This document shows positions 51,659 through 53,211 of a stretch of DNA of 64,000 bases, one piece after another. The translations under genes were made by a program, and so were the position numbers. The notes below the pieces were generated by a model. That model worked only from the letters and a program-made list of their open reading frames with translations. It was not told where the DNA came from and did no database searches. Source of the DNA: Sphingosinicella sp. LHD-64 (GTDB taxonomy: Bacteria > Pseudomonadota > Alphaproteobacteria > Sphingomonadales > Sphingomonadaceae); assembly GCF_031157375.1 (NCBI RefSeq), contig NZ_JAVIFV010000001.1, positions 682,001-746,000 of the forward strand, in the 5' to 3' direction. Each line of letters begins with the position of its first letter. Within the stretch, counting starts at the first letter, position 1.

Positions 51659-52396
51659 ATGGCGCTGGATCCGGACCTGCTGCTGCGCGCATATTCGATC
51701 GGCGCGTTTCCCATGTCCGACAGCCGTGATGCAGGCGACGTCTTCTGGGTCCAGCCGCGCCGTCGCGCGATCCTTCCGCTCGAGGGCTTCCACGCCTCGA
51801 AATCGCTGCGCAAACGACTGCGCGCGGGTCAATTCGAGGTTACCCGCGACCGCGCCTTCCCCGAAGTGGTCGCCGCTTGCGCGGATCGCGAGGACACTTG
51901 GATCAATGTCGAGATCGAGGAGAGCTACGCCCTGCTCCACCGGCTCGGCCACGCCCATTCTGTCGAGGTCTGGGACGGGAGGGAGTTGATCGGCGGGCTC
52001 TATGGAGTCGTGCTCGGCCGCGCCTTCTTCGGCGAGAGCATGTTCTCGCGCCGGACCGACGCGTCAAAGGTCGCGCTTGCATGGCTGGTGGCGCGGCTCA
52101 GGATCGGCGGCTTCACCCTGCTCGATTGCCAGTTCATGACCGAGCATCTGCGCAGCCTCGGCGCGGTGGAGATCACCCAGGAGCGCTATCTTCAGTTGCT
52201 GTCGTCGGCGCTCGGTGAGGGCGAAGGCGCCACTGTGTTGGCCGGCGGCGGAGGCGGAGGTTCTCCTTCCGGTGTCGGCTCGGCGGCCGGCGCCGCCGAG
52301 TTCGAGGCGCTGGACCGGTTGCTCGTCGCGCGCTCCGCCTCGACCGGCGTGCCGCCCGGATGGGTCATCGCGCAGCTCATCGGCCAGACGTCGTAG
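51659..52396 (+). CDS. aat: leucyl/phenylalanyl-tRNA-protein transferase
   Basis: Aat adds Leu or Phe to the N-terminus of proteins beginning with Lys or Arg, marking them for ClpSAP degradation. The 245-residue protein has LLLRAYSIGAFPMSDSRD, FWVQPRRRAILPLEGFHASK, GGLYGVVLGRAFFGESMFS and CQFMTEHLRSLGA, and ends WVIAQLIGQTS, which corresponds to the usual sphingomonad C-terminus. Between about residues 183 and 230 lies an unusual Gly-rich insert (VLAGGGGGGSPSGVG). The last 205 nt are antisense to the DUF2155 gene. Confidence 0.95.
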   Translation: MALDPDLLLRAYSIGAFPMSDSRDAGDVFWVQPRRRAILPLEGFHASKSLRKRLRAGQFEVTRDRAFPEVVAACADREDTWINVEIEESYALLHRLGHAHSVEVWDGRELIGGLYGVVLGRAFFGESMFSRRTDASKVALAWLVARLRIGGFTLLDCQFMTEHLRSLGAVEITQERYLQLLSSALGEGEGATVLAGGGGGGSPSGVGSAAGAAEFEALDRLLVARSASTGVPPGWVIAQLIGQTS

Positions 52397-52827
52397 ATCG
52401 GGTGCTCGACGACGTTGAGGCTCGGCGATTCCTTGTAGAGCCAGCCGGAGAAGACGCGCTGGAACTGTCCCTGCGGATTGCGCACATCGAGCTGGACGAA
52501 GGCGCCGGTCAGTTGCTGCACCTCCCAGGGCGCGGTCGTCTCGCAGGCGCGCAGGCGCAGGATCACATCGCCGGCACGGATCGCCTGGCCGGGGCGCAGG
52601 GTGAACTCGCGCATCTGTCCGTTGCGCTTGTTGAGCAGCCGCACCATTGCGATCCGCTCGGCCATCGGTGTCGTGCCCGCTGGCAGCTGCTCGACCGTTT
52701 GCGGCACGTCGACCGTTTCGGTGACGCCGTTCGTATCCTGATTGTTCTGCTGGGGCGCTCCCCCGGTTCCGCAGGCCCCGAGGGCGAGCAGGCCGGCGAG
52801 AAGGGCGGTCTTGCGGCGCGCCGACAT
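52192..52827 (-). CDS. DUF2155 lipoprotein with extended C-terminal tail
   Basis: A 211-residue lipoprotein with lipobox LGAC (Cys19) and a DUF2155 domain (LNKRNGQMREFTLRPGQAIR, TAPWEVQQLTGAFVQLDVRNP, FSGWLYKESPSLN, HPIYDVWPMSC). In sphingomonads it commonly sits between ndufa12 and aat and may help assemble or stabilise complex I-associated envelope components, but no function is proven. The final ~66 residues (PEGEPPPPPPA-type) are low complexity and antisense to aat. The start is 3 nt after the NDUFA12 stop. Confidence 0.88.
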   Translation of the reverse strand: MSARRKTALLAGLLALGACGTGGAPQQNNQDTNGVTETVDVPQTVEQLPAGTTPMAERIAMVRLLNKRNGQMREFTLRPGQAIRAGDVILRLRACETTAPWEVQQLTGAFVQLDVRNPQGQFQRVFSGWLYKESPSLNVVEHPIYDVWPMSCAMTHPGGTPVEAERATSNRSSASNSAAPAAEPTPEGEPPPPPPANTVAPSPSPSADDSN

Positions 52828-52830
52828 GCC

Positions 52831-53211
52831 TCAGTCGGGCGTCCAAGCCTGATAGTCGCCCGTGGCTGCGGCGCGATGGCCGCCGCGCTCCAGTGCGCCG
52901 GGCGGGCGGTAGGCGAGCGCAGTGCCAGTCAGGTTGGGGGCCGGGGCGCGCAGGAACGGCGGCGCCGGCGGCAGCGCCTCATCCGGCACCGCGTCGATCT
53001 GCCGGGTGAGCCAGGCATACCATTCGGGCGGCACGCGGCTGACGTCGTTCGATCCCTGGTAGATCACCCAGCGGCGATCGTCCTTCGTCGATTCGAAATA
53101 GGCGTTGCCGGCCGCGTCCGTGCCGACCTTGCTGCCGTTGCGCCAGCTGTAGAGGGCTGTGCCGGTCGACGCGCCCTCCCACCAGGTGAAGAGATTCTTG
53201 AAGAAACCCAT
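52831..53211 (-). CDS. NADH:ubiquinone oxidoreductase subunit NDUFA12
   Basis: A 126-residue accessory subunit of alphaproteobacterial complex I (homologous to mitochondrial NDUFA12/B17.2). It has the family opening FFKNLFTWWEGASTGTALYS, GNAYFESTKDDRRWVIYQG and VPPEWYAWLT. It sits on the cytosolic arm of the complex. The core nuo operon is elsewhere. The DUF2155 gene follows almost immediately. Confidence 0.95.
   Translation of the reverse strand: MGFFKNLFTWWEGASTGTALYSWRNGSKVGTDAAGNAYFESTKDDRRWVIYQGSNDVSRVPPEWYAWLTRQIDAVPDEALPPAPPFLRAPAPNLTGTALAYRPPGALERGGHRAAATGDYQAWTPD

Follow-up and report, generated by a model that had tools for sequence, protein, structure and literature searches.

An old convergent overlap of aat and a DUF2155 gene, enlarged in Sphingomonadaceae, appears to be selected in both reading frames

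The 205 bp over which the 3' ends of aat and a DUF2155 gene run into each other in Sphingosinicella sp. LHD-64 very probably constitute a true and old convergent overlap, in which each strand is coding, purifying selection acts on both products, and the present length was reached through the loss of a stop codon. This appraisal is built on a comparison of the window (the whole 64,000-nucleotide stretch of DNA that was analyzed) with related loci, in which the median overlap is 190 or 181 bp in Sphingomonadaceae versus 64 bp elsewhere. We also favor, with less assurance, a more detailed reading: the DNA shared since the early Alphaproteobacteria would encode a secreted protein's final strand together with the helix and tail at the C-terminus of a cytoplasmic enzyme, the QTS end of the enzyme would exist only because of its neighbor, and the loss of a Tyr in Sphingomonadaceae would have given the neighbor a new, selected segment of about 40 residues at the median. 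The features of the locus, in window coordinates, are the following.

51659..52396, + strand: aat, leucyl/phenylalanyl-tRNA-protein transferase, 245 aa; ATG 51659-51661, stop TAG 52394-52396
52192..52827, - strand: DUF2155 gene, 211 aa; ATG 52825-52827, stop TGA 52192-52194 (TCA on the + strand)
52192..52396, both strands: convergent aat/DUF2155 overlap, 205 bp, third codon positions facing each other
52831..53211, - strand: NDUFA12-family gene, 5' of the DUF2155 gene on the same strand, 3 bp apart
52366..52395, - strand: DUF2155 residues 145-154 (YDVWPMSCAM), closing strand of the predicted core; shares most of its DNA with the final Aat helix and the QTS end
52355..52393, + strand: Aat C-terminal helix (233-242) and motif, PGWVIAQLIGQTS (233-245)
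52298..52324, + strand: Aat EFEALDRLL (214-222), of which 217-222 lie within a predicted helix (217-229)
52195..52365, - strand: DUF2155 tail, residues 155-211, Ala/Pro/Ser/Glu-rich, without predicted secondary structure
52244..52261, + strand: Aat GGGGGG (196-201), in a low-confidence linker; faces DUF2155 PPPPPP (190-195, 52243-52260)
52186..52194, - strand: DUF2155 stop TGA (52192-52194) and a further in-frame stop two codons on (52186-52188)

A sequence-only reading of this locus had described a 205-bp antisense overlap of two real genes, and our data bear it out. Both frames were confirmed, each contributing 67 codons to the overlap with the stops extra, and both proteins exceed the cut-offs of known families. 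Aat matched Leu_Phe_trans with 5e-67, above the Pfam cut-off, and TIGR00667 with 187.7 bits (cut-off 143.55 bits); the DUF2155 protein matched PF09923 with 5.3e-26 and 91 bits (gathering cut-off 27), its core covering the whole profile. The pair thus consists of genuine members of known families. The N-terminus of the DUF2155 protein resembles a lipoprotein signal (LALGAC), which we take, from the familiar lipobox pattern, to mark a putative lipoprotein. The conserved DUF2155 part had been said to end near the aat stop codon; its actual end lies about eight codons inside aat (YDVWPMSC, 52372-52395).

In the phase adopted by the two genes, third codon positions are opposed and positions 1 and 2 are swapped, and the genetic code gives each tail residue one partner: Pro-Gly, Ser-Asp/Glu, Ala-Ala, and Thr-Val. 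It is because of these fixed partners that PPPPPP mirrors GGGGGG, a correspondence already noticed from the letters and exact in the coordinates listed above; the run lies where the sequence is variable and, for Aat, the confidence of the model is low. Stop codons obey similar rules. A C or T ahead of the TA of a Tyr codon reads as TAG or TAA on the opposite strand, and a T ahead of the CA of a His or Gln codon reads as TGA. Because of the Tyr rule, Aat ends opposite the Tyr of YDVW, and DUF2155 often ends opposite an Aat Tyr. Codon-position substitution rates, which had been proposed as a means to examine the overlap, are uninformative in this phase, since the third positions fall together and the first and second are exchanged. 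When upstream Aat was cut into windows of 55 codons, 607 of 2429 from the first of our two sets of loci, and 536 of 2500 from the second, had an open antisense frame in this phase. On its own, such an open frame is therefore weak evidence, and the case for the overlap rests on its conservation and on a substitution test.

The first set comprised the best sequence matches plus five fetched Sphingomonadaceae loci (L111-L115), with the window as L001. Among the first 110 loci, 105 overlapped by 58-299 bp; the genes lay apart in L018 and L033, the aat frame ran on in L062, and L091 and L100 were interrupted by a contig end. Eight of the 115 were excluded, namely these five and, removed by hand, L097 (frameshift) and L030 and L114 (short overlaps), which left 107 loci and, after removal of near-duplicates, 102. 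In L097 (the Sphingomonas sediminicola chromosome) both protein ends diverge from their relatives together, as a single frameshift within the overlap would produce, be it real or a sequencing error. The aat frame of L062 (Sphingomonas sp. 7/4-4) departs from that of its relatives in mid-gene, and its DUF2155 tail looks normal. For the second set, 159 Sphingomonadaceae genomes were searched, 157 matched, and 107 loci were analyzed; these were not a random draw, 27 being among the best-scoring listed matches (L277-L303) and 80 being picked as same-genus pairs (L304-L383). Dropping L315 (gap) and L354 (340 bp) left 105 loci, and removal of five near-duplicates of either set left 100. Outside Sphingomonadaceae, we covered all 24 loci from other families of the order and, for the rest of the class, 109 of the 124 matched genomes, the 15 omitted being weaker or later-listed matches.

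Conservation of the overlap and of its phase extends across species and well beyond the family. The phase was the same in 102 of 102 first-set and 106 of 107 second-set loci. The overlap exceeded 150 bp in 97 of the 102 first-set loci; lengths in the second set varied from 49 to 340 bp, with a median of 181 bp and at least 150 bp in 73 of the 105 kept loci. The other families of the order overlapped in 23 of 24 loci (median 64 bp, 23/23 in phase). Across the remaining Alphaproteobacteria, 59 of 109 loci overlapped, 58 of them by at least 25 bp (median 64 bp, 57/58 in phase); a further 15 had the genes close together with an overlap of at most 4 bp, and 35 had no aat in the fetched stretch. Taken together, 82 of 133 loci outside Sphingomonadaceae overlapped, again with a median of 64 bp, and 80 of the 81 overlaps of at least 25 bp were in phase. 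Of the 36 genomes without an adjoining aat (35 from the class, one from the order), 21 carry the gene elsewhere (e.g., about 1.5 kb away in L270); no aat match was obtained in the other 15, and some of those genomes are incomplete.

Suspicion of a frameshift or missed stop in the assembly of the window has a general basis, given that, in a 2008 survey, 124 of 178 convergent overlaps longer than 60 bp were judged to be misannotations (PMC2478687). For this locus such an annotation or sequencing error is refuted and has virtually no probability left, the identical overlap and phase recurring at distinct loci (102 in one set, 100 in the other) whose assemblies include others besides that of the window. 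Likewise, a check for relatives whose DUF2155 gene stops near 52390, combined with a sequencing error at that point of the window, did not find this situation. A recent or local event finds no support, given a long overlap that is usual in Sphingomonadaceae and rests on one of about 64 bp across much of the class.

The positions of the stop codons suggest how the overlap grew. In the first set, the DUF2155 stop faces an Aat Tyr in 97 of 102 loci, and in 91 of the 102 it occupies one and the same column of the alignment, where the Aat core ends; in the window this usual place is held by the second in-frame stop (52186-52188), which faces Aat Tyr177 (CTA). The stop lies opposite a Tyr in 82 of 105 second-set loci and opposite Gln or His in the remainder. 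Outside Sphingomonadaceae, 47 of 80 in-phase DUF2155 stops are opposite an Aat Tyr and 33 opposite Gln or His; Tyr accounts for 16 of 23 in the order and for 31 of 57 in the rest of the class (26 Gln or His). Where outgroup Aat proteins carry a [DEN]FY motif, the DUF2155 stop is exactly opposite its Tyr in 20 of 21 cases. The equivalent site in the window is EFEALDRLL, which faces DUF2155 SNRSSASNS (169-177, 52297-52323). No Tyr was found at the [DEN]F site of Sphingomonadaceae wherever that site was located (81 of 102 loci in the first set, 35 of 105 in the second); it is occupied by F, G, R, E and others, with F and G commonest in the first set and F in the second. Four of the 23 order outgroups also have F at the site, three of them (L124, L130, and L135, all DFF) with smaller extensions and one (L116) with an overlap of just 55 bp and no extension. 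Since the site was not located in 21 of 102 and 70 of 105 Sphingomonadaceae loci, a single ancestral loss of the Tyr is not proven, although we infer it from this pattern.

The overlap may accordingly be pictured as an old one, of about 64 bp in much of the Alphaproteobacteria, with the ancestral DUF2155 stop inside aat. In Sphingomonadaceae, the [DEN]FY site of Aat would have lost its Tyr, which would have removed the DUF2155 stop and lengthened the protein by tens of residues, mostly up to the Tyr that ends the Aat core. The earlier proposal for the paired tails appears sound in its DUF2155 stop loss, in having each tail read from the antisense strand of the other gene, and in its low-complexity run (G6/P6); a recent, local origin finds no support, nor does a lost stop near 52390, the ancestral stop having apparently lain within aat, often opposite an Aat Tyr. 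The aat stop itself is TAG or TAA in 101 of 102 first-set loci, 23 of 23 in the order, and 56 of 58 in the rest of the class. Where the first-set DUF2155 stop falls at an Aat Asp-Tyr, GAT (42) outnumbers GAC (14), so that TAA is commoner than TAG; only two Asp-Tyr pairs occur upstream, too few to serve as a control. The count of pyrimidines before the stop Tyr (36/36, versus 268/332 upstream) was given no weight because the definition of the stop itself introduces a bias.

Loss of the DUF2155 stop need not imply a function for what followed, and a neutral run-on, with the frame open merely because the low-complexity Aat tail holds no antisense stops, has to be weighed. An Aat Tyr does mostly set the length of the tail, antisense frames are often open in aat, and Tyr, His, and Gln are nearly missing from the Aat tail (three CA-type and no TA-type codons among 5113 and 4406 residues in the two sets). 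The substitution test uses fourfold-degenerate third positions of Aat, where no change affects the Aat protein. If the DUF2155 codon facing such a position is fourfold degenerate as well, the change is silent in both genes; if it belongs to a split box, a transversion alters the DUF2155 protein. Both sets stem from one family, Sphingomonadaceae, and the pairs compared are only approximately independent; the low-complexity tails make the codon alignment uncertain, which affects both site classes alike.

Within the tail, the 51 tip pairs of the first set had transversions at 21 of 256 DUF2155-changing sites (8%) versus 185 of 578 doubly silent sites (32%); in the upstream control, where no DUF2155 protein is encoded, the figures were 306/1322 (23%) and 604/2558 (24%). 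The depletion was present in all three distance classes. It was also seen separately in the proximal tail (8/127 versus 81/274) and the distal tail (12/122 versus 94/287; ratio 0.30, bootstrap 0.12-0.50), a split from which the six of 102 loci without a recognizable motif are absent. The second set (100 loci, 50 pairs) behaved in the same way, with 23/178 versus 156/414 in the tail (ratio 0.34, 0.21-0.51) and 354/1156 versus 614/1988 upstream (ratio 0.99). A box-standardized expectation agrees: 21 transversions were observed and 63.3 expected at DUF2155-changing tail sites, as against 185 observed and 134.6 expected at doubly silent ones. These data demonstrate, at the level of sequence, that the DUF2155 tail is under purifying selection as a protein. 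Selection also acts on the other product. Transversions in the tail that change Aat and are silent in DUF2155 were rarer than doubly silent ones (4/50 and 9/86 in the first set; 13/91 and 2/10 in the second), the constraint on Aat being weaker there than upstream (56/1285 and 9/373). With Aat-silent, DUF2155-changing transversions reduced three- to fourfold in two sets and not upstream, and with the DUF2155 tail still present in two species whose genes have separated (see below), we regard the neutral run-on as contradicted and very unlikely.

Split-box transitions, which are silent in both genes, were not depleted overall in the tail (45/256 versus 65/578). The constraint therefore tracks the DUF2155 reading frame, as expected of protein coding rather than of an element in DNA or RNA. 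This bears on the proposal that regulation keeps the overlap, through pairing of the mRNAs over about 200 nt or through transcriptional interference. It would account for the fact that 106 of 107 Sphingomonadaceae loci overlap by 49 bp or more, and the one terminator-like site between 51640 and 53300 is at chance level (shuffles, mean 0.9). The depletion obeys the genetic code, however, and not base identity; the length of the overlap is highly variable, and in the rest of the class 35 loci had no aat in the fetched stretch and 15 kept the genes close without a long overlap. We consider regulation very unlikely to be what maintains the overlap, and prefer an overlap that codes on both strands.

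Natural separations of the two genes are informative about this double coding. L142, which represents a single species together with L018 and L033, has a 434-bp gap between aat and the DUF2155 gene. The gap contains another open frame, which begins MTDHYRISLAPEQ and, among the Sphingomonadaceae loci examined, occurs in the species of L142 alone. The DUF2155 tail of L142 is as long as that of its relative L012; its start aligns clearly and the low-complexity remainder less so. The Aat frame opposite this tail contains a stop, and the RSSA stretch has been lost from the tail, so that the RSSA motif was probably imposed by Aat. The working aat of L142 has retained ALDRLL and lost the QTS end. In L315, 115 bp lie between the genes; Aat is truncated ahead of its tail, and the DUF2155 tail is retained and resembles that of the genus mate L314 (CTMRAP.G..KEKE). 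The DUF2155 tail can thus persist once the overlap is gone; for Aat either outcome occurs, retention of the linker (L142) or loss of the tail (L315). Long Pro-, Ala-, or acid-rich DUF2155 tails are also found in L169, L174, L176, L211, L221, and L233, which have no aat in the fetched stretch; such tails therefore arise without the overlap as well.

The C-terminal motif of Aat is best explained, from its distribution among loci, as a by-product of the last DUF2155 strand. By coordinates, Aat Q239 faces DUF2155 C152, Q243 faces W148, and the Aat stop faces Y145; C152, W148, and Y145 are invariant in 43 DUF2155 sequences, and Q239 is invariant in 40 Aat sequences. Among overlapping loci, all 23 from the order carry a QTS-type end, as do 50 of 58 elsewhere under a strict pattern, five of the eight failures looking like QTS variants by eye. 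By the same visual inspection, it was found in none of the 21 Aat proteins whose genes lie apart from DUF2155 (the end is LQQT in L264) and in none of the 15 close, hardly overlapping loci (L179 ends RNTS). It is this tie to overlapping pairs that speaks for a by-product. A conserved motif can hence stem from the gene of a neighbor and not from a function of its own protein, which is a trap for family-based inference.

Structure models show what the shared DNA would encode. In the Aat model (mean pLDDT 91), residues 185-216 lack secondary structure, and pLDDT is about 47 across 191-210; two confident helices follow in the tail (217-229 and 233-242). The DUF2155 model (mean pLDDT 77) has a beta core at 58-154, its final strand being 145-154, and a tail without secondary structure, in which ten-residue blocks have pLDDT values of 41-79 with the peak over the proline run. 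One stretch of DNA thus largely yields a strand in DUF2155 and a helix in Aat in these models. Searching the PDB for folds similar to that of the DUF2155 model, with E up to 0.001, produced no match and no reliable relative. The DUF2155 tails of the 102 loci (5419 residues) consist of 24% Ala, 18% Pro, and 16% Ser, with 0.0% Cys, and the core carries two invariant cysteines. Selection against stray periplasmic Cys is a plausible reason why the Aat tail is without His and Gln. The DUF2155 extension would serve as a periplasmic tail, disordered and free of cysteine, on an anchored lipoprotein. Aat would tolerate sharing this stretch since its own part consists mostly of a flexible linker that precedes two helices.

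The solved Aat enzyme (TIGR00667; PDB 2z3k, 2dps, 2cxa) aligns with Aat residues 3-183, and residues 184-245, comprising the linker and the two predicted helices, fall outside this match. Relative to DUF2155 (PF09923), the protein of the window adds a long Ala/Pro/Ser tail antisense to aat. In E. coli O157:H7, antisense short genes are embedded in a longer gene, and laoB is reportedly a further antisense overlapping gene of this organism. The E. coli O157:H7 antisense overlapping genes (PMC9927249) share antisense double coding with aat/DUF2155, yet they are novel short genes over a longer annotated gene, whereas aat and DUF2155 are conserved genes that share only their ends. In Thioclava, the DUF2155 gene adjoins NDUFA12 and mlaD and is non-essential (PMC9226611). 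Titles and the opening parts of abstracts yielded no account of an aat/DUF2155 overlap; Rogozin et al. (2002) could include the pair. In kind, the pair belongs to the known convergent overlapping genes of prokaryotes, in which two annotated genes, encoded on opposite strands, have their 3' ends in common and the overlap originates by stop loss. The 54 convergent overlaps of the 2008 survey that were possibly real are mostly conserved in very close species only (PMC2478687). The aat/DUF2155 pair differs from the overlaps described there in that its phase is kept in 80 of 81 cases outside Sphingomonadaceae, in exceeding 150 bp in most Sphingomonadaceae loci, and in being selected in both frames; it is unusual in spread, length, constancy of phase, and selection. 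Whether bacteria use long antisense double coding is disputed, and selection on both products has rarely been shown for it; aat/DUF2155 supplies about 200 distinct replicates from nature, together with a silent-site test that is clean, an origin by simple stop loss, and two cases in which the genes have separated naturally.
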